Of a DNA stretch of 64,000 nt, positions 2,951 to 41,205 are shown in pieces. The notes under the pieces were generated by a model. The model ran no database searches. It worked only from the letters and a program-made list of their open reading frames with translations, and was not told the origin of the DNA. Both the position numbers and the translations under genes were made by a program. How positions within the stretch are numbered: the first letter of the stretch is position 1; the number at the start of each line of letters is the position of its first letter. Source of the stretch: Asaia platycodi JCM 25414 (GTDB lineage: Bacteria > Pseudomonadota > Alphaproteobacteria > Acetobacterales > Acetobacteraceae); assembly GCF_000614545.1 (NCBI RefSeq), contig NZ_BAKW01000007.1:1-64000 (forward strand), read 5' to 3'.

Positions 2951-2987
2951 AACCGGCTGGCGCTTATGCGTCAGCCGGTTTTGTTTT
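2951..2987 (+). terminator. Rho-independent terminator downstream of pal
   Basis: A 13-bp stem (one G-U pair) at 2951-2963 and 2968-2980 with the tetraloop TTAT is followed by TTGTTTT. This would end the tol-pal transcript before cpoB. Confidence 0.8.
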
Positions 2988-3049
2988 ATGGTGAATGCGA
3001 TTTTGCGTGGCATTCTGCCCGCACCCACGATTTGACTGAAGGATGCGCC

Positions 3050-3896
3050 ATGCGCGGTGCCCGAGTTTCCCGGTTCTTCATCCTCTCGACCGTTTCTCTG
3101 CTGTCCGTGCTGGGCGCGTCCGCCGCGAAGGCTCAGGTCACGAGCCGCGAGGGGATTACGCTTCAGAACCAGATCCAGCAGCTCAGCGAGCAGCTTCAGC
3201 AGGTTCAGTCCAGCGCGCAGAGCGCACCGGCTTCCGGCGGTTCGGCGCCGTCCGTTTCGGCAGGCAATGGCGATCTGGTGTCGCAACTTCTTCAGCGTGT
3301 CTCGACCCTCGAAAACGAGAACCGCGAGATGCGCGGCGAGCTGGACCAGCTGTCGAACCAGGTCCAGACGCAAAACGCGACGCTGACCAAGCAGATCGGT
3401 GACATGCAGTTTGCGGCCCAGAACGGTGGCGGTGGCGCAGCGCCCTCAGCTCCGCCTTCATCCGATGCGCCAGCCGCGGCCCCTGCGGCACCAGCAGCGA
3501 CGGACAAGCCGGTAACAGCGCTCGAACTGCTCAAGACCGGGCAGGCAGCCTCAAGAGCCGCGATTATGCAACGGCGCAGAGTGATGCAAGCCAGGCTTTG
3601 AAACTCGCCAAAACGCCGAATGGAAAACTCGAATCGCAGTTTTTGCTCGCCCAGTCGCTCGCCGGGCAAAAGCAATATCGTGACTCGGCACTGGCCTATT
3701 ACGATGCTTACAACCGCGCGCCGAAATCGCCCCGTGCACCGGAGGCTCTCCTTGGCGTTTCCGCTCGATGCTCGCGCTCGGTGACAAGAATTCAGCTTGT
3801 CAGGCCTTGCAGAAGCTCGATGCTGAATTCCCCTCAGCCACAGCGCGTGTGAAGGCTGCTGTCACGACATTCAAGGGGCGTGCAAGCTGCCATTGA
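3050..3896 (+). CDS. cpoB: CpoB/YbgF, cell division coordinator (two frameshifts)
   Basis: CpoB is a periplasmic protein that links Tol-Pal function with peptidoglycan synthesis at division. The ATG at 3050 begins a signal peptide ending near AAKAQ. A coiled-coil trimerisation region rich in Gln and Leu follows (residues about 30-120), then a Pro/Ala linker, then TPR-type helices (QFLLAQSLAGQ, ALAYYDAYNRAPKSP). Single bases are missing near 3550 and 3761; restoring both gives 282 residues and a stop at 3894-3896. The stop overlaps the TTG start of tilS. Confidence 0.88.
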
Positions 3897-5148
3897 GAGA
3901 GGCTCAGCCGATCGGCGAGAGTGAGTTCGCCGATCTGATGTCTGTCTTCGGACCTTTCATCCCTGATCTGCCCCGCTTTCCCGTCGCTGTTGCTGTGTCT
4001 GGCGGGGCAGATAGTCTCTGCCTTGCCTGGTTATTGCGCCGCTGGCGCCGTGCGGTTCTGGCGCTGATCGTAGACCATGGCCTGCGTGAGAACTCTGCTG
4101 CCGAGGCCGCAGAAACAGCGTCCAGACTCAAGGCACTCGATATTCCTTCTGTCATCCTCAAGCTTGATACAATCGATCGAAAGGGGAGCTTACAGAAGAA
4201 CGCTCGTATCGCACGCTATCAGGCGCTCACAGCAGCCTGCCTCTCGCGCGGCATTCTCGATCTGGCTTTAGGCCATCATGAGCGCGATCAGGTTGAAACG
4301 CTTCTTCTTCGCAAGGCTCATGGGAGTTCGCCTCATGGGCTCGCCGCCATGGCCCTCTCGCGCGAGACGCCGCAACTGCGCCATATCAGGCCATTGCTTG
4401 AGATCGCGCCGGAGCGCTTGAGAGCGACGTTAAGAGAACAGGGCATCGTCTGGTTGAGGATCCGAGCAACCGTAATCGCCTCTTCGAGCGGGTCCGCATC
4501 CGTCTCTCGCTTGACGAAGCCAGCTACATGGCGGGGCGCGGCCAGCTTGCCTTGCACGCGCTTCAGCGCAACGAGAACGCTTCAAAAGGCGCTCAAGCGC
4601 TCGCGAAATTGCATGTCGATCCGCTTGGCTTTGCTGTCATGGCGACATTACCCGACGACCCGGCTCTGCTGGGCCGTATCTGGCAGGGTGTCTCAGGTGC
4701 GGCCTATCCGCCGTCTCCCGTTTTTCTCGAAAACCTTATTGCACTGCCGAAGCCAGTGACGATGGCGGGCGCGCAGCTATGTGCTGCCGGACGGCTTGGG
4801 AGTGGCTGGCTGTTACTGAGGGAGCCGTCGGCTGTGGCAGGGCGGATCGCGGCACAGCCTGGTGTCTTGTGGGACGGACGGTTCTCCTTTTCAGGCGAAG
4901 TGCCCGAGCAGGGGGGAGAGATTGCGGCGCTCGGTGACAATGCCCGTCATTTTCGTCGCCATGCATTGCCCGCCATTGTGTTGAGGGGGCTTCCCGCACT
5001 CTGGTTGGGGGGGCACGTGATGGCCGTTCCCCAGCTCGGCGTCTTTGCCGGGCCCCTCTGGGCAGGGCTGGCGTTCTCTTTCAGTCCGGCTGTGCTCCTG
5101 AGCGACCCCTCATTCTGGCCGGAATACCGCGAAACAGTGAAAACTTGA
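3893..5148 (+). CDS. tilS: tRNA(Ile)-lysidine synthetase TilS (one frameshift)
   Basis: TilS converts C34 of the CAU-anticodon tRNA-Ile to lysidine, which switches its codon reading from AUG to AUA, and is normally essential. The PP-loop ATP motif SGGADS lies near residue 38, followed by conserved LALGHHERDQVETLLLR. One G is missing near 4452, after which the frame continues with EDPSNRNR, a motif typical of TilS, and then the C-terminal region to 5148. The start is a TTG overlapping the cpoB stop; an ATG at about 3938 (MSVFGPFI) is an alternative. The order cpoB-tilS-ftsH is classical in Alphaproteobacteria. Confidence 0.9.
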
Positions 5149-7329: not shown

Positions 7330-8696
7330 ATGAGTAAAGAGCGCAAGGCAGAGCGTAAGCTGTTCGGCACAGACGGTATTCGAGGCACCGCCAACAGTTT
7401 TCCGATGACAGTCGATGTGGCGCTTCGTCTGGGTCAGGCCGCAGGCTCTATTTCCGTCGTGGGGCGCATCGTCATAGTGTCGTGCTGGGCAAGGATACGC
7501 GTCTGTCGGGCTACATGATTGAAAGCGCACTGGTATCGGGATTTCTCTCTGCCGGTATGGACGTCATTCTCGTTGGTCCGTTGCCTACGCCAGCCATAGC
7601 GATGTTGACCCGTTCGCTTCGCGCCGATCTGGGCGTGATGATATCGGCCTCGCATAACCCGTTTGGCGATAATGGCATCAAGCTTTTCGGCCCGGATGGT
7701 TTCAAGCTCTCTGATGAGGTCGAGGCGGAAATCGAGTCCCTGATGGGGCAGGATCTGACGGCCCAGATGGCGCCACCGGAGGAGGTCGGTCGCGCCTCCC
7801 GTCTGAACGATGCTGCTGGTCGCTATATCGAAGCAGCCAAAGCGTCTTTTCCCAGAGGGTCGCGTCTCGAAGGGCTGCGTATTGTTCTCGATTGCGCCAA
7901 TGGCGCGGCCTATCGCGTAGCCCCTACCGCCTTGTGGGAATTGGGGGCAGAGGTCATCAAGATCGGCTGCGAGCCGAACGGGGTGAATATCAACGCCAAA
8001 TGCGGCTCTACCTGTCCCGAACCCCTGCGTGAGGCCGTGATCGCTCAAAAGGCGCATCTCGGCATCGCGCTTGATGGCGATGCCGATCGTCTCATTATCG
8101 TCGATGAGAAGGGGCAGATCGTCGATGGCGATCAGATTCTCGGGCTCATCGTATTGTTCCTGCACAAGAACGAGCGCCTTGGCAGCAATGATGCGGTTGC
8201 GACAGTCATGTCCAATCTCGGCCTCGAAAAGAAGCTTGCAGAACATGGGATCACCCTACACCGCACGGCGGTAGGCGATCGGTATGTTGTCGAGAGAATG
8301 CGCGAGCGGGGGATCAAACTGGGTGGCGAGCAGTCTGGCCACATGATCCTGTCGGATTTCGCGACGACGGGTGATGGGCTCATCGCGGCGCTTCAAGTGT
8401 TGGCCGTACTTGTCGAAGAAGGACGGCCAGCGAGCGAGATCCTGCGCGTGTTCAAGCCTTATCCACAGCTCCTGCGCAATGTGCGCTATCAGGGTGGCGA
8501 TCCGCTCCAGACGGAAAGTCTCGCCGAGGCAAGGCGGTCGGCCGAAGCACGGCTCGGCAATAAAGGTCGTCTGGTGCTGCGCAAGAGCGGAACCGAGCCG
8601 TTGATCCGCGTCATGGCAGAGGCTGAAGATCCCGCCTTGGTCGAAGAGATCGTCTCTTCAATCTGCGAGGCGGTTCAGAAAGCGGTCGCGCTCTGA
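7330..8696 (+). CDS. glmM: Phosphoglucosamine mutase GlmM (one frameshift)
   Basis: GlmM converts glucosamine-6-phosphate to glucosamine-1-phosphate for UDP-GlcNAc, peptidoglycan and LPS. The N-terminal LFGTDGIRG motif follows the ATG at 7330, which has a good AGAGGGA ribosome site. The catalytic-serine loop [14 protein letters not shown], the metal loop DGDADR and the C-terminal phosphate-binding [12 protein letters not shown] are all present. One base is missing near 7445: the frame resumes as [19 protein letters not shown]. The restored length is 455 residues, normal for the family. The TGA overlaps the thiD ATG (TGATG), so the two are co-translated. Confidence 0.94.
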
Positions 8697-9490
8697 TGAA
8701 GGGGCGCGTGCTGATCGTTGCGGGGAGCGACTCCGGTGGCGGTGCAGGTATTCAGGCCGACATCAAGACGGTCAGTGCCTTCGGTGGCTTTGCCATGACT
8801 GCCATCACCGCAGTGACGGCGCAGAACACACGCGGGGTGAGTGCAATTACTTACCTGTCGCCCGGTATGGTGGCTGACCAGATGCGGGCGGTGCTTGATG
8901 ATATCGGCGCGGATATCATCAAGCTCGGCATGCTGGGTAATGCCGAGATCATGGAGGCGGTGTGCGATACGCTTGCGCGCTACCCCACGATACGCTGTGT
9001 CATCGATCCGGTGATGATTGCAACCAGCGGAGCGCGTCTGATGACCGAAGACGGTGAGGCCGCATTCCGGCGTCTTTACGCCCATTGCTTCATGTTGACA
9101 CCCAATCTGCCTGAGCTCGAGGCACTGAGTGGTCGCGCGCTTTCGACCCCAGGGGAAATGAGAGAGGCAGCCATCGAGGTCATGGGAAACCAGGACCTTA
9201 CCTGGATACTGGCAAAGGGCGGCCATCTGCCCGGAGGTGATGTGGTCGATATCTTGCTTTCGAAGCAGCAGGAGCAACGGTTTGAAGACCCGAAGGTCGA
9301 CACCCTTCATACGCATGGCACTGGCTGTACTCTGGCCAGCGCTATAGCCGTATGCCTCGCCCAAGGCGAAGCTGTGAGGCGAGCTGTCGAGCGGAGCAGG
9401 GCCTATGTTCGTCGTGCCATCCTTCAGGCGCCGCCTTATGGGAAAGGGAACGCCCGACCGATGAACCACATGAATCAGAACGAAGGTTGA
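8696..9490 (+). CDS. thiD: Hydroxymethylpyrimidine/phosphomethylpyrimidine kinase ThiD
   Basis: ThiD phosphorylates HMP and HMP-P to HMP-PP for thiamine synthesis. The 264-residue ribokinase-type product has the N-terminal [17 protein letters not shown] motif, [11 protein letters not shown] and the C-terminal anion-hole motif [11 protein letters not shown]. It is translationally coupled to glmM. The C-terminal end is convergent with, and overlaps by about 16 bp, the end of the ctrA-like gene on the other strand. Confidence 0.95.
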
Positions 9491-10217
9491 AGGGCCGAGG
9501 TCGCCAGTTTGCCCTGCTCTGTTGATGCTCCGGGCGCCACCGGCTTCGTGTCGTCGCGCAGCACATAGCCACGCCCCCAGACCGTGCCTATCAGATGTCC
9601 GGCGCCGAATTGTTGCAGCTTCCTGCGTAGCTTGCAGATGAAGACATCGATAATCTTCATTTCCGGTTCATCGATGCCGCCGTATAGATGGTTCAGGAAA
9701 GCATCTTTCGTCAGCACATTGCCACGGCGTAGCACCAACAGTTCGAGAATGGCATACTCCTTGCCGGTGAGCTGCACATGGTTGCCATTTACCGAGGCGC
9801 TTTTGGCATTCAGGTCGAGAGCGAGGGGGCCAACCGTCATGACAGTGGTGCTGAAGCCCCGCGAGCGGCGCAAGACGGCCTGAAGTCGAGCCATAAGCTC
9901 TTCTGAATCGAAGGGCTTGGTGATGTAGTCATCAGCCCCGGCATGAAATGCTTGATTTTAGCCTCTGCTCGATTGAGCCCGCTCAGGACAATAATCGGCG
10001 TCTGTATTTGAGTTTTTCGAACGCGCCTGATGACTTCATACCCTTCGAGATCTTCGAGAGTCAGTTCGGTCAGGGCAAGATCGTAATCGTAATGGCGGAG
10101 CATATCGATCGCTTCGTGCCCTGTATGGGCGTGATCAACAGTAATACCGCCCTGTTTCAGGGTCTTGATCAGCGCTTGGGCCGTAGCTTGATCGCTTTCC
10201 ACAAGAAGGAGGCGCAT
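9475..10217 (-). CDS. ctrA: CtrA-like OmpR-family response regulator with Glu in place of the phospho-acceptor Asp51 (one frameshift)
   Basis: The receiver domain (1-118) and winged-helix domain (about 125-228) match Caulobacter CtrA, including [33 protein letters not shown] and WGRGYVLRD. Residue 51, the phosphorylated Asp in CtrA, is Glu (codon GAA; context [16 protein letters not shown]). In the acidic pocket (E7, D8 in Caulobacter) residue 8 is Ser; E7 and the TKPF lysine remain. One base is missing near 9944: the frame resumes [12 protein letters not shown]. The start at 10217 has GGAG upstream. A roughly 16-residue C-terminal tail exceeds the Caulobacter length. Family identity is strong; orthology to the cell-cycle regulator is inferred. 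Confidence 0.9.
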
Positions 10218-10667
10218 CTCATCAATCTCCAGGGTTGATGATGGTTTGGTACTACCTAAGGTTGCTGTCGGCAAGAAAAATACTTTCTTTCTCCGAAAAC
10301 ATTTCTGCAACCTAGTAACGAGTTTTTAACGTTTGCGCCCTAGGATTTTCTTGTGATGTCTAAAGTTTCTTACAATAAAAATGCTGATGTTTTTGAAGTG
10401 TTAGTGCCTTTTTCTATAGTGATCTTCAGGTGGTCGAGACAAATCGTTGACGCTTATTAACGTGTCAAACCCTTGATTTGGCCTTACGGTGTCCAGTGGT
10501 GACATGCAATACTCGTTTAGGTTGTATTGCAATAGGGTTCTCATAAAACAAACCGCTGGTATGGAAAGAATTCAGCAAGGTTGCTTTGCTCAATTCGTAC
10601 GGATTACTGCGGCCCTCGACCTAGTGGACAATGTCTGATTTTGGATAGAGAACGGAGATCGAGCGCC
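10218..10667. other. AT-rich divergent intergenic region
   Basis: About 450 bp, clearly richer in A+T than its surroundings, separates the ctrA-like gene from a rightward unknown gene. It must hold promoters for both. I see isolated TTAA half sites near 10325 and 10457 but no TTAA-N7-TTAA CtrA box. The inverted repeat at 10505-10531 is listed separately. No gene is visible here. Confidence 0.6.
10505..10531. promoter_or_regulatory. 8-bp inverted repeat, possible operator
   Basis: TGCAATAC at 10505-10512 and GTATTGCA at 10524-10531 are perfect inverted copies separated by 11 nt, so half-site centres are about 19 bp apart (two helix turns). This geometry suits a dimeric regulator. The regulator is unknown. 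Confidence 0.4.
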
Positions 10668-16814: not shown

Positions 16815-18933
16815 ATGCGTTCTTTAAGCAACCCGTCCGCGTTCGGCGCGGAAACAGGTGGAGCGGCCGGCGCCAATGTCTCTGACATCGCGCAGCTGAG
16901 CATCAACACTATCCGCACCTTGTCGATGGATGGTGTGGAAAAGGCCGATTCAGCCATCCGGGAACGGCGATGGCGCTGGCTCCTGTCATGTATACGCTCT
17001 GGCAGAATGACCTGAAATACGATCCGGCAGATCCGCTCTGGCCGGCACGCGATCGCTTTGTGCTGTCCGTCGGTCACGCCTCGATGCTGCTGTATTCGAC
17101 GATCTATCTCACCGGTATTCGCGATGTGGTGAAGGACAAGGTTCTCGACAGCCCGTCGCTGACCCTTGAGGACCTCAAGCAGTTCCGTCAGCTGAACTCC
17201 AAGACCCCGGGTCACCCGGAATACCGTCACACGGCAGGCATCGAGACCACGACCGGCCCGCTCGGCCAGGGCTGTGGCAACTCGGTCGGTATGGCGATGG
17301 CCGAGAAATATCTCGCAGCCCATTACAACCGCCCCGGCTATGACCTGTTCGATTACCACACCTATGTGTTCTGTGGTGACGGTGACATGATGGAAGGCGT
17401 TTCGTCCGAAGCCGCTTCCATGGCAGGTCATCTGGGTCTGGGCAACCTGATCTGGCTGTATGACTCGAACCAGATCTCGATCGAAGGCTCAACCAACCTT
17501 GCCTTCACCGAGAATGTTGCCGAGCGCTTCCACGCTTACAAATGGCATGTTGTCACCGTCAACGATGTCAACGACATTGCTGCGGTAAGCAAGGCGCTCG
17601 AAGAAGCCCGTTCGGTCAAGGACCGTCCGAGCCTGATCATCATGCACACGGTCATCGGTTTCGGTGCCCCGAAGAAGGCCGGTACGGCTTCGGCCCATGG
17701 TGAGCCTCTGGGCGAAGAAGAAATCGCCGGTGCCAAGAAGGCCTATCACTGGCCTTGGACCGATGCGTTCCATGTACCCGAAGGTGTTCTGGAGCATTTC
17801 CAGGAAGGTCTCGGCAAGCGCGGCGCAACGGCGCGTGCGGAATGGCATGCCCTGTTCGACCGCTATACGAGCGAATATCCGAAGGAAGCCGCAGAGCTGC
17901 GCGCCATCTTCGAACGTCGCCTGCCGGAAGGCTGGGACAAGGATATTCCGAAGTGGGATGCGGATGCCAAGGGCATTGCCTCGCGCGCAAGCTCGGGCAA
18001 GGTCATCAACGCCGTTGCCAAGAACGTCCCCTGGATGCTTGGCGGCTCTGCCGATCTTTCGCCTTCGACCAAGACCAACCTCACCTTTGACGGTGCAGGG
18101 TCGTTCCAGCCGCCGCAATGGGGTGGCACCTATGCCGGTCGCAATATCCATTTCGGTATTCGCGAACATGCAATGGGGTCGATCTGCAACGGTCTGGCGC
18201 TGGCTGGTCTGCATGCTTATGGCTCGGGCTTCCTAATCTTCTCTGATTACATGAAGGCTCCGATCCGTCTGTCGGCCCTCATGGAACTGCCGGTCACCTA
18301 CATCTTCACGCATGACTCCATTGGCGTCGGCGAAGATGGTCCGACCCATCAGCCGATCGAGCAGCTGGCTCAGCTGCGTGCAACGCCTGGTATCATGACC
18401 ATTCGTCCGGCTGACGCCAACGAAGTGTCTGAAGCTTGGCGCACCCTGATGCCGATGACGCACAAGCCTGCCGTGCTGATCCTGAGCCGTCAGAACCTGC
18501 CGACGCTGGATCGCAGCAAGTATGCCTGCGCCTCCAACCTCGCCAAGGGCGCCTATGTGCTGGCAAGCTGTGAAGGCAAGCCGGATGTCATCCTGATGGC
18601 ATCGGGTTCGGAAGTGTCTCTCGTGGTCGATGCTTATGAGAAGCTGACGGCAGAGGCATCAAGGCCCGCGTCGTGTCCTTCCCGTCCTTCGATCTCTTCG
18701 AGGAGCAGGATCAGTCCTATCGTGACAGCGTGCTGCCGCCGGAAGTCAAGGGACGTGTGGCAGTCGAGCAGGCTGCGGCTTTCGGCTGGGACCGTTACAC
18801 CGGCATCGGTGGTTCGATCATCGCGATGAACAGCTTTGGCGCCTCGGCTCCGCTCAAGTCGCTGCTCACCAAGTTCGGCTTTACGCCGGAAAAGGTGTAC
18901 GACGCCGCCCGCGAGCAGGCTGCCCGCAAATAA
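16815..18933 (+). CDS. tkt: Transketolase Tkt (two frameshifts)
   Basis: Transketolase is a ThDP-dependent enzyme moving two-carbon units in the non-oxidative pentose phosphate pathway. The ATG at 16815 follows GGAGGT. Motifs: HPGTAMALAPV, GPLGQG, the ThDP motif CGDGDMMEGVSSEAASMAG, FGIREHAMG, and THDSIGVGEDGPTHQP. Single bases are missing near 16951 and near 18655, after which the frame reads GIKARVVSFPSFDLFEEQD and ends AAREQAARK. The restored length is 706 residues. It opens the pentose phosphate cluster. Confidence 0.95.
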
Positions 18934-28915: not shown

Positions 28916-30374
28916 ATGACGAAGAACCACGGCAGACCTATCGATACGGATATCCCCGCCCGGCTCGACCGGCTACCCTGGTCGCGGTTTCATATGCTGA
29001 TCGTCGTGGCACTCGGGATCACCTGGATACTCGACGGGCTCGAAGTGACGATCATCGGTTCGCTCGCTCCCTCGCTCCAGCGTGGCGATACGCTCGGCCT
29101 GTCAGCCGACGGCATAGGCTTTGCCTCATCTGCCTATGTGGCGGGAGCCGTGCTGGGAGCGCTGGTTTTCGGCTGGATGACCGATCAGCTGGGGCGCAAG
29201 CAGATCTTCTTTCTTACTCTGGCTCTTTACGTTGTCGGCGTCGGCGCCTCGGCGCTGTCATGGAATCTGACCAGCTTCGCTGTGGCCCGTTTCGTGACCG
29301 GTATGGGTATCGGAGGCGAATATTCTGCCATCAACTCCGCTATTGACGAGCTTGTCCCGGCACGGCTGCGTGGCCGTGTTGATGTCATGGTCAACGGCAC
29401 GTTCTGCTGGTGCTGCCTTCGGGGCGATCGGCTCGGTCTGGCTGCTCAACTCGGCGATCATTCCGATCTGGCTCGCCTGGCGCGTGGCTTTCGCGCTCGG
29501 GGCGCTTCTTGGTGTTGCGGTACTTTTTCTCCGTACTTTCGTGCCGGAAAGCCCGAGATGGCTCATGACCCATGGCCGTGTGGAAGAAGCCGATGCGATC
29601 GTGAGCCATGTGGAATCCCATTGTGTGGAGCCCGACGGCGGGTGGGGGCAGAAATTGCCCACTGTGCTGATCTACCCCGCAGGGGTATTCAGCCCGGCTG
29701 AAATGATCAGGATCATGGTGCAGCGTTATCGCGGTCGCTCGCTTTATGTGCTGGTTCTGATGATTTCACAGGCCTTCCTGTATAATGCCGTGTTCTTCAC
29801 CTACGGCATGGTACTGACTAAATATCATGGCGTCTCACCGCGTGCAGTTGGCTGGTATATTCTTCCTTTGGCAATAGGCAATCTTTGTGGCCCGCTCATT
29901 CTGGCGCGCTGGTTCGATACCTGGGGCCGCAGGCGTATGATCGGACTGAGCTACGCCATCTCAGGTGTGCTCATGATTGCTGTCGCCTATGCCATGGGAA
30001 TTCACGCTCTGACCGCCGCAAGTCAGACGCTCTCATGGTGCGGTATTTTCTTTTTTGCGTCTGCGGCCGCATCATCGGCCTACCTCACCGCCAGCGAACT
30101 TTTCCCTCTTGAAATGCGGGCTTTTGCAATCGCGGTATTCTACGCGGTCGGCACTCTTTTCGGGGGCGTCGCAGCGCCGGTGATCTTTGGCCATCTGATC
30201 GGCACAGGGCGACTTTCCCTGCTGGTCATGGGCTATGTCGTGGCGGCGATCCTGATGTTGATTGCCAGCGCGGTCGCCTGGATCTGGGGGGTCGATGCCG
30301 AAAACCGCTCGCTGGAAGAAGTAGCACCGCCGCTATCGGAATATTACGCCCGCGAGGAGGAGCGCGCCGTCTGA
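28916..30374 (+). CDS. MFS transporter, sugar/metabolite-type (two frameshifts)
   Basis: A twelve-helix MFS permease: the A-motif loop GWMTDQLGRKQ lies between helices 2 and 3, MGIGGEYSAINSAIDELVPARLRGR near helix 4, and FVPESPRWLMTHGR before the central loop, as in the sugar-porter/aromatic-acid relatives. Two G are missing near 29405 and 29410; restoring them gives NGTFWLGAAFGAIGSVW. The start is taken at ATG 28916 (MTKNHGRP), giving 486 residues. The substrate is unknown. Confidence 0.87.
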
Positions 30375-33029: not shown

Positions 33030-34456
33030 ATGACACAACTTCGCTCTACCATCACGGTGCCGCAATGGGGCCAGCATCTGCGCGCGCTGGTCAAGATTGC
33101 CGCGCCGCTCAGTTTTTCGCAGCTGAGCGAGATGGCCATGAATGTTACCGACACGGTGCTTCTGGGCAGTCTCGGCGCGGCGGCGCTTGCTGTTGGTGGC
33201 ATGACCACCAATCTGTTTTTTTGCACCTTCATCACCTTTCAGGCAGCGCTGGGTGGCGCCAGCATATTGATCTCGCGGGCAAGAGGGCGCGCCTTTGCAG
33301 CACAGGATGCGCTGGAGGATCTTTCGGGCATCGTCTCTTCAGGTGTGGTGCTCGCGCTTTTGCTCTGCCTGCCTGTTCTGGCCATACTTTTGCCCGCCGC
33401 TCGTTGCTCGCGTTTTTCAACGAGCCGTCACAGATCGTCATTCAGGGCAGTCGCTTCATGCATCTGCTGCTCTGGGCGCTACTGCCGAATCTTGTGATCA
33501 TCGGGTTGTTGCGGATCATCCTGCCCGCCTTCGGCAGCGAGCGCCTGCTGCTCTGGACCATGCCGGGCATGGCAGTCATGAACGGCTTTCTGAATGCCGG
33601 ACTGATTCATGGCCGCTTCGGTCTGCCTGAAATGGGGCTGTGGGGCTCTGCCTGCGCTACCATCGTGACAGGCTGGTCTGTGGCGCTTCTTCTGGTGGTG
33701 CTGTCACGTCGTCAGGCGCATCTGAAGCGTCATCTGCGTCTGGCGCGTCCCGATCCGCGCGCCATGGGTGAGATGCTGCGCCTTGGCCTGCCGATGATGG
33801 GCGCCACAGGTGCGGAGTTGCTCGCTTTTCAGATGACGGGGCTTCATGCGGGTGCCCTGGGGGCGGTTTCGTCTGCGGCGCACCAGATCGCGCTGAGCGT
33901 TACGAGCACGGCCTTCATGATCAGCCTGGCCGTCTCTCAGGCTGTCAATATACGCGTTGCCTACTGGCTGGGTGCAGGCTCGCCGCGCGCTGCCCTGCGG
34001 TCGACAATCGGGGCGATGTTTCTGGTTCTTGTCTGGACCAGCTTTACGGCCACAATATTATTGTTCTTTCCTGATTATATTGCCGGGTTCTATCTCGATG
34101 CACAGAGCGCGGACGCGGCCAAGGTCATGCCCATCGCGGTGTCGCTGCTCAAGATTGCGGGCATCTTTCAGATTCTCGATGGCGTCCAGTGTGTGTGCGC
34201 AGGGGCGCTGCGTGGCTGCCACGACACTTTCATGCCGATGGTGCTTATGGTCCTGACATATGTTCCGGTTTCGATTTTCGGCGGAGACTGGCTGGCTTTC
34301 GAGGGAGGTTACGGCGCCGTCGGTCTCTGGATCGGTCTGGCGACCGGGCTTGGCATTCTGGCGCTTATACTATCGATCCGCCTCGTCATTACGTTCAGGC
34401 GCAAGCTTGCGGGTGACGAGCCCGCTATTGCGAACGGGCTCGTCGATCCTGCCTGA
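33030..34456 (+). CDS. MATE-family multidrug efflux transporter (one frameshift)
   Basis: A polytopic protein with about twelve hydrophobic segments and MATE features: FSQLSEMAMNVTDTVLLGSLG in helix 1, and the C-terminal half repeating this with GATGAELLAFQMTGLHAGALG. MATE (NorM) pumps export cationic drugs with Na+ or H+. One base is missing near 33400: the frame then reads RSLLAFFNEPSQIV. The restored length is 475 residues. It diverges from cysS. Substrate unknown. Confidence 0.9.
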
Positions 34457-39485: not shown

Positions 39486-41205
39486 TTACGCCCGGCACCC
39501 CGCCTGCACCAAAACGTCACGCACCGTGTCCATTTCAACATCGCGACTGGTAAATGCCTTGCCGATTCCGCGCATCAGCACGAAAGACAGCCGCCCGTCC
39601 TGAACCTTTTTGTCGCGGGCCATGGAACCGATAAGTTCTTCTGCGCTCAGGGTTTCGTCGAACCAGTCGAGACCGGCGGGCATGCCCAGACCGCGCAGAT
39701 GCGCGTCGAGGCGCTGCATGTCCCTTTCGGGGCAATGCCCCAGGCAACCGAGAGAGCCGCAGCGAGATGCAGCCCTATGGAGACGCCCTCACCGTGCAGA
39801 AGACGCCCGTCATAGTTGAAATGAGCTTCCAGGGCATGGCCGAAGGAATGGCCCAGATTGAGCAGGGCGCGGCCATCCTGGGCAGCAGTTTCCTTCTCGT
39901 CGTCCATGACCACGCGCGCCTTGAAGCTGCAGGCCCGCTGAACGGCCTCGGCAAGTGCTGCGGGGTCACCATCCAGTATGTCGGCGCCATGAGCCTCGCA
40001 CCAGGCGAACAGTTCCGGGTCTGCGATCAGCCCTGCCTTGACGATCTCAGCATAGCCCGCGACCCGCTCGCGACGCGAGAGGGTTGCCAGTGCCGAACTG
40101 TCGGCCAGCACGAGCTGCGGCTGATAGAAAGCGCCGACAAGATTTTTTCCGGCGCGGGCATTCAGCCCCGTCTTGCCGCCGACGGAGCTATCGACCTGCG
40201 ATAGTAGAGTGGTCGGGATCTGGACAAAAGGAACGCCGCGCAGAATGCTGGATGCGACGAAACCCGAAAGATCGCCTACGACACCGCCGCCCAGGCCAAT
40301 GACTGTCGTGCGCCGCTCCATGCCATGGTCAAGAATGTCGTTGATGAGCTGCGCATAGCGCGTGAGGGATTTCGATTCCTCGCCTACCGGCACGATGAAG
40401 GCTTCTGCCTTGATGCCAGTCTCGGCCAGAGCAGCCATGAGGCGTGGCAGGTGCAGGACCGCGACATTCTGATCTGTGACGACTACGACGCGCTTCTGCG
40501 GCAGGAAAGGCGCCAAATAGGCGCCAGCGCGGCTGATCAGATCCGAACCGATGAGCACATCATAATGATGCGATTCCAGCGTGACAGGCACCCTGAGCGG
40601 ATGCGCATGAGATTCGAGGGCTTCGATTATACGCTGGGCGCCGTGATCGACGCTGTCATCTCCACAATCCACGATGATATCGGCCTCTGCATAAATAGGG
40701 TGACGCTGTGCCTGAAGTGTCACTAGGGTTGTCTCGACATTGCCCTTGTCGAGAAGCGGGCGCCCCGTGCGTCCTGAAACGCGCTTGACCAGAATGGGCA
40801 GCGGGCAGCGCAGCCAGATCGAGCGGGCATGTTTCTTGACGAGTCTGCGTGTCTGGGAGTCGATGAAGCTCCGCCGCCAGTGGCCAGCACCTTCGGCGGG
40901 CCTTGCAGCAGGCGCTGGATCACGCGTCGCTCTCCGTCGCGAAAAGCGGGTTCACCATGGCGGGCGAAAATTTCTGCAATGGTACACCCGGCAGCCCTTT
41001 CGATCTCGTGATCGGCATCAACGAAATCGAGCCCGAGTCGAGCCGCAAGGCGCCGACCGATCGTCGTCTTTCCTGCGCCCATCAACCCGACAAGGACGAT
41101 AATGCCGTGCGAGGAGGCGATCTGGGGGGAGACCGATCCCGGTACGGGATCAGGCAGGTCGGTCATCGTTCGGTTTCGATCAGAAAAAAAGGTGGGGCGT
41201 GACAT
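39486..41205 (-). CDS. aroKB: Fused shikimate kinase/3-dehydroquinate synthase AroK-AroB (two frameshifts)
   Basis: The N-terminal part (about 1-200) is a shikimate kinase: P-loop [34 protein letters not shown] and [11 protein letters not shown]. The kinase end, [14 protein letters not shown], runs with no stop into a 3-dehydroquinate synthase (from about 215: [59 protein letters not shown]). Single bases are missing near 40882 and 39729. The restored length is 573 residues. It catalyses steps 2 and 5 of the shikimate pathway. The start may be ATG 41166 (MTDLPDP) instead. Confidence 0.92.

Follow-up and report, generated by a model that had tools for sequence, protein, structure and literature searches.

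CtrA of Asaia and related acetic acid bacteria carries a natural Glu51 and may act without phosphorylation

CtrA of Caulobacter crescentus is an OmpR/PhoB-type regulator at the end of the CckA-ChpT-CtrA relay. We found that its counterpart in Asaia lacks both Asp51 and an intact acidic pocket, having Glu51 and Ser8 in their place, and that glutamate at this position recurs across many genera of acetic acid bacteria in which the relay was mostly undetected. The reading we favour, at a probability of about 0.6 and judging from sequence, is that Asaia CtrA is a phosphorylation-independent pseudo-receiver: with Glu51 as a built-in phospho-mimic, it would work without a phosphate. The same substitution is known as an engineered allele, and D51E CtrA of Caulobacter and Rhodobacter is called phosphomimetic in passages of PMC12186491 and PMC6363796. 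The Asaia-type Glu51 differs from that allele in being natural, fixed across genera, and in most cases accompanied by loss of D8 and of the relay.

Results

The ctrA gene of the window

The window, that is, the whole 64,000-nucleotide stretch of Asaia platycodi JCM 25414 DNA analysed here, encodes on its minus strand a CtrA-like protein starting at the ATG at 10217. The features concerned are as follows.

10065-10067, minus strand: ctrA codon 51, GAA (Glu), replacing the phospho-accepting Asp
10194-10196, minus strand: ctrA codon 8, AGC (Ser), replacing the second acidic (metal-binding) residue
10197-10199, minus strand: ctrA codon 7, GAA (Glu)
9937-10217, minus strand: ctrA receiver-domain frame, codons 1 to about 93; NF045991 (CtrA) is the best NCBIfam match, over residues 1-94
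9936-9957, minus strand: change-over of the two ctrA frames, probably an assembly or sequencing error, possibly a real lesion
9475-9957, minus strand: receiver end and winged-helix DNA-binding domain of ctrA, C-terminus LQPSF
8696-9490, plus strand: thiD-like kinase gene (context only), running towards ctrA, whose last 16 bases it overlaps

A preliminary description of this DNA, which placed the gene in acetic acid bacteria, had claimed that the protein aligns with Caulobacter CtrA along both domains, with a conserved DNA-binding domain, and that residue 51 is Glu and the acidic pair E7-S8. All of this was borne out: the host is Asaia, the three codons read GAA, GAA and AGC, both domains align, and identity to Caulobacter CtrA is 61% in the C-terminal part (E = 1.5e-52) and 44% in the receiver part. 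NF045991, by its name a Rhodobacteraceae-type CtrA model, scored 316 bits on an intact relative (L063), below its cut-off of 350 and still ahead of every other family (next, 172 bits). That relative also matched Pfam Trans_reg_C and the receiver model PF00072, so the window protein appears to be a receiver without its phospho-accepting Asp.

The nearest titled loci belong to Asaia krungthepensis, A. siamensis, A. lannensis, A. bogorensis, A. prunellae, Asaia sp. W19 and Swaminathania salitolerans. Seven Asaia/Swaminathania loci (L300-L306) share the two replacements, codon 51 being GAA or GAG in all of them and codon 8 AGC or AGT, which rules out a base-calling error in the window. A second canonical CtrA, which might rescue function and was raised earlier as a way in which this copy might be only a paralogue, was not found in the window genome (G000); beyond the window locus, the top match to Caulobacter CtrA there was only 33% identical. 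Two CtrA matches were counted in G000, one of them placed; since nothing else exceeded 33% identity, we assigned the other to the receiver part of this gene.

The frameshift and the quality of the assembly

The preliminary description treated 9475-10217 as a single gene frame, but the assembled sequence holds two. The receiver frame from 10217 loses register near 9936-9957, the DNA-binding frame terminates at 9475, and the alignment of two intact relatives to this gene likewise switches frame here. In seven of eight other Asaia genomes (G001-G006, G008) and in Swaminathania (G016) ctrA is open over its full length.

A real frameshift would make ctrA a dead pseudogene in this strain. The two frames as assembled fit such an account, as does the eighth Asaia genome (G007, 88% complete), in which only part of ctrA is present, at the edge of a contig. 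We consider it improbable. Within the same 15 kb, compared with the same two relatives, a ybgF-like gene runs over three frames and tilS, an essential gene, over two; the assembly is 85.9% complete, as against 95-100% for seven of the eight other genomes of the genus; and both parts of the window ctrA are conserved relative to Asaia and Swaminathania, with dN/dS of 0.02-0.10 and 0.01-0.05. Because tilS and the ybgF-like gene are also shifted and the assembly is incomplete, the ctrA shift is very probably an assembly or sequencing error.

The window assembly is error-rich. In the same 15 kb, ftsH-like, thiD-like and aminopeptidase-like genes are each in one frame, 32 residues are missing from the start of a glmM-like gene, and a hisC-like gene gives an ambiguous picture; these names, ybgF-like and tilS included, are presumed from the sequences, that of thiD being backed by Pfam. 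The two broken genes at 2966-5148 (ybgF-like and tilS) were confirmed against two relatives. By eye, frames elsewhere in the window also looked broken, at 18829, 29343-29701, 33030-34456, 39647-41205 and 62583, tkt, aroB, aroK and uppS being among the genes concerned.

Residue 51 across the Acetobacteraceae

As the preliminary description had proposed, we aligned CtrA across the family, and Asp51 proved to be replaced clade-wide. Among 196 aligned Acetobacteraceae loci, residue 51 was Asp in 139, Glu in 42, Arg in 6, Ala in 2, and Gly, His, Asn and Ser in one each, the position being missing from three. Outside the family, E7, D8 and D51 were present in all 17 loci read (24 genomes searched, best locus supplied for 17). 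Of the 220 family genomes drawn, 28 do not enter these residue-51 counts: 24 had no match at 1e-44, G000 was left out for its two frames, G012 and G120 were taken as paralogues, and G195 was missed by oversight. Four genomes (G001, G002, G005, G008) lay outside the draw and are absent from the relay counts below, and second CtrA-like copies (e.g. in G156, G206, G198 and G222) were left uncounted. Seven genomes rated 85-100% complete (G061, G147, G109, G175, G131, G187, G229) had no CtrA match at 1e-44; the missing match in these Acetobacteraceae genera resembles the Granulibacter case in a passage of PMC2877005.

In the 80 titled loci that best match Asaia CtrA, a set hence weighted to its near kin, 49 had Glu51 (GAA in 39, GAG in 10) and 31 Asp51. 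The Glu51 loci came from Asaia, Swaminathania, Brytella, Gluconobacter, Acidomonas, Neokomagataea, Saccharibacter, Tanticharoenia and Acetobacter, with isolate ESL0709 and one unclassified metagenome bin. As it is common to so many genera, the E51 state is, by its distribution in these sequences, an old fixed condition and no single-strain oddity.

We placed the changes on a FastTree phylogeny of 193 sequences (192 plus Caulobacter), built with positions 7-9, 51, 79, 102 and 103 removed and 101 kept. One Asp-to-Glu change led to a clade of 47 sequences that includes Asaia. The support for this single origin was 0.92 and it requires inferred returns to Asp within the clade, which counts against our preferred reading. 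Other changes to Glu were placed at G164, at G113 with G177, at G179, and in a four-member subclade within the large clade. Over independent losses of Asp51, Glu was the replacement in 4 of 7 (0.25 expected, p = 0.07, not significant). Seven CtrA-like proteins (L077, L252, L254, L256-L259), which have Arg or Ser at 51 and have lost the Lys and Ser/Thr switch residues, form a long-branch clade of their own.

Co-loss of the CckA-ChpT relay

ChpT was sought in the 220 family genomes with a family-specific profile built from eight ChpT sequences of Acetobacteraceae, used in place of the Pfam ChpT model, which alone was weak and noisy. Scores were bimodal: 129 genomes reached 9.4e-24 or better, and none of the others went beyond 1.9e-11; hits in this second group were scored as absent. 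CckA was searched with three family CckA proteins, one of which had 5idj (histidine kinase) and 5idm (CckA) as its best PDB sequence matches, and was called present at E <= 5.2e-114. The 108 genomes so called are a less firm count than that for ChpT, because the next hybrid kinase follows closely (7.2e-109) and only six candidates were scored per genome. CckA is indeed under-detected, since 22 of 115 genomes with Asp51 and ChpT lacked it by this cut-off.

Genomes with Asp51 had ChpT in 115 of 139 cases and CckA in 95 of 139; among the 50 drawn genomes without Asp51, ChpT was found in one (G164) and CckA in none. Both were absent by profile from the four Asaia genomes searched (G000, G003, G004, G006). 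The best values in the window genome, 5.4e-5 for ChpT and 4.9e-91 for CckA, lie outside the true groups (<=9.4e-24 and <=5.2e-114). The search for cckA and chpT proposed in the preliminary description thus came back empty for G000, and the independence of Asaia CtrA from CckA-ChpT, which it had suggested, appears well supported at the sequence level. In five genomes (G011, G024, G135, G231, G234) chpT lies about 6 kb from ctrA, and by eye the ORFs adjoining chpT look cheA-like.

Taking the pocket as acids 7 and 8, Asp51 and Lys101, and leaving out three loci without residue 51, we found it intact in 114 of 116 ChpT-positive genomes (exceptions, G164 and G134) versus 8 of 73 ChpT-negative ones (Fisher p = 6e-39, kinship ignored). 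Five of those eight ChpT-negative genomes are only 77-90% complete and three are 99-100% complete. By parsimony on the CtrA tree, ChpT underwent 12 losses and one gain and the pocket eight losses and two gains. Seven of the eight pocket losses fell on ChpT-loss branches; 20,000 random placements by branch length averaged 0.89 and never exceeded 5. This coincidence is support and no proof, because the tree was built from CtrA itself and its degenerate members are long-branched. Counting against a tight rule, CtrA of two genomes inside the E51 clade (G021, G062) has Asp51 and a complete pocket, and searches there detected neither ChpT nor CckA; several ChpT-negative genomes (e.g. G088, G103, G163) hold Asp51 in a broken pocket.

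We considered whether CtrA might still be phosphorylated, on another residue, on Glu51 itself, or by another kinase or acetyl phosphate. G164 (locus L155) combines Glu51 with an intact acidic pair and ChpT, and several Acetobacter CtrA proteins keep E7/D8 beside Glu51, both of which would be compatible with residual phosphorylation. In Asaia itself this is very improbable: the protein has Ser8 and no Asp51, CckA and ChpT went undetected, and a passage of PMC4395418 states that Glu phosphorylation has no known part in bacterial signalling. G164 may also be an intermediate stage, with D51E arising before the relay was lost.

Selective retention of switch residues

The 42 E51 proteins had S/T79 in 42, K/R101 in 39 (strictly Lys in 31), an acid at position 7 in 39, and an acid at position 8 in 5. 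Where position 51 was neither Asp nor Glu (12 proteins), the corresponding figures were 4, 1, 7 and 1. Seven of those 12 form one clade on the CtrA tree, so the contrast at S/T79 and K101 rests on few independent cases. Receiver dN/dS was 0.045 in six Asaia plus Swaminathania, 0.051 in 17 Gluconobacter and 0.050 in six Acetobacter, with 0.026-0.035 for the DNA-binding domain in the same groups; these ratios are rough because dS is near saturation. E51 receivers are under purifying selection.

Keeping S/T79 and K/R101 while losing acid 8 is the pattern expected if Glu51 were still read and the metal site no longer needed. The same contacts have been proposed for pseudo-receivers in a section of PMC12632262. 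Among the Acetobacter loci read, Glu51 stands beside intact E7/D8, a possible intermediate.

The main competitor of the phospho-mimic reading is that, once the relay had gone, the receiver was kept as a phosphorylation-independent dimerisation or partner-binding module, with Glu51 an inherited, near-neutral replacement. We hold this to be the less probable account, if a serious one. It would accommodate the lineages that keep ctrA with Arg, Ala, Gly or Ser at 51 or with Asp in a broken pocket, the one inferred origin of the main E51 set, and the Glu bias that fell short of significance (p = 0.07); it also has a precedent in ChxR, which has Glu at the site and kept constitutive binding with Asp or Ala there, as described in part of PMC4395418. 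Two observations argue against it. S/T79 occurs with K/R101 in 39 of 42 E51 proteins versus 1 of 12 others, few of the 12 being independent cases, and Glu has been maintained across GAA/GAG codon changes.

C-terminal tail, flagellar genes and the ctrA promoter

In Caulobacter the terminal AA of CtrA is required for its turnover by ClpXP. Among proteins with a stop codon seen, the AA ending occurred in 60 of 89 with Asp51 and ChpT, 7 of 17 with Asp51 and no ChpT, 3 of 36 with Glu51 and no ChpT, the single protein with Glu51 and ChpT, and 2 of 8 others. SciP was rejected as a partner, as PF06627 scored above cut-off in one of 220 family genomes. A purely flagellar role was likewise discarded: no FliF match was found in 10 of the 38 drawn E51 genomes, all ten keeping ctrA (tables counted by eye), so the role of CtrA in E51 genomes is probably wider than flagellar. 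G000 too had no FliF match.

Two direct repeats lie in the ctrA promoter.

10315-10331, minus strand: direct repeat CGTTAAAAACTCGTTAC, TTAA-N7-TTAC, a putative autoregulatory site 114 bases upstream of ctrA
10447-10462, minus strand: second, looser direct repeat, CGTTAA-N4-CGTCAA

The CtrA box consensus is TTAA-N7-TTAA. The half-sites of the first repeat (CGTTAAARACWCGTTAC) were invariant in all eight Asaia/Swaminathania promoters, and in each of five genomes it was the sole exact match to CGTTAAN5CGTTAM. Its resemblance to the CtrA box suggests putative autoregulation. A family-wide promoter box was rejected, since 11 of 12 positions matched in 7 Asaia/Swaminathania loci and the other 73 of 80 loci had 10 or fewer, in a different place. 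Genome-wide, TTAAN7TTAAC gave 3 matches in G000 and 5 in G006 versus 5 and 10 for the reversed-pattern control (no enrichment); CGTTAAN5CGTTAM with one mismatch gave 51 in five genomes versus 113; and nine of 20 motif stretches, all nine from G006, had no flagellar or cell-cycle theme when viewed by eye. With counts below control, a motif-based CtrA regulon was dropped as evidence.

Discussion

Several elements of this picture are already in print, at least in the passages cited here: incomplete relays in Rhodospirillales, Glu-bearing pseudo-receivers and engineered D51E CtrA. In Rhodospirillales, parts of PMC2877005 describe relay members as missing to varying degrees, and parts of PMC8116508 report chpT, cckA and divL as identified in only 27-36% of genomes. 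Asaia shares such missing members; neither source, in those parts, ties them to loss of the phospho-accepting Asp, and searches of the two main texts for 'phosphorylation site' and Gluconobacter gave no matches. Of receivers without the aspartate (e.g. ChxR, HP1043), sections of PMC4395418 state that Glu replaces the aspartate most often (26%), that 65% keep the first acidic residue, that the second position is acidic in 29%, and that the Lys is largely retained, and a mimic role for Glu is proposed in a section of PMC12632262; CtrA is unmentioned in the main text of either paper. Asaia CtrA has the Glu replacement in common with these pseudo-receivers. It differs from them in that the change lies within one orthologous family, beside close relatives that retain the relay. 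Our searches of a library of open-licence papers turned up no account of a natural D51E change in CtrA or of a tie between it and relay loss.

From Caulobacter CtrA, with which it aligns along both domains, the Asaia protein differs in Glu51, Ser8, the undetected CckA and ChpT, and a C-terminus, LQPSF, without the AA tail. On the reading we favour, the relay was lost in the acetic acid bacterial clade that includes Asaia, Asp51 became Glu, and the second metal-binding acid, D8, then went in most lineages. S/T79 and K/R101, as readers of the phosphorylated or mimicked state, were retained together with the DNA-binding domain. CtrA would then be a phosphorylation-independent transcription factor whose amount, through transcription and turnover, rather than its phosphorylation sets output, perhaps via the box in its own promoter. 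What the sequences show directly are the substitutions and their spread across the clade, the joint loss with the relay, the switch residues selectively retained, purifying selection and the conserved promoter repeat. The active conformation, phosphate-free DNA binding, autoregulation and order of losses are what we infer from these patterns, and constitutive activity of Asaia CtrA is likewise a prediction.

Caulobacter CtrA, a passage of PMC8116508 states, cannot be deleted without severe defects. The odds seem to us about even that the relay was dismantled repeatedly within one family and that acetic acid bacteria arrived naturally at the engineered phosphomimetic, making CtrA relay-free and level-controlled. 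Close relatives, several of which are named acetic acid bacteria in culture, differ here in whether this one regulator still has its kinase relay, which enables a direct test of whether Glu51 replaces phosphorylation and of the order of relay loss, D51E and pocket decay. If the reading is true, the natural intermediates (E51 with intact E7/D8, E51 with ChpT, and full loss) would show how a two-component switch becomes hard-wired. In Asaia and other acetic acid bacteria, evolution would then seem to have hard-wired a well-known bacterial signalling switch.
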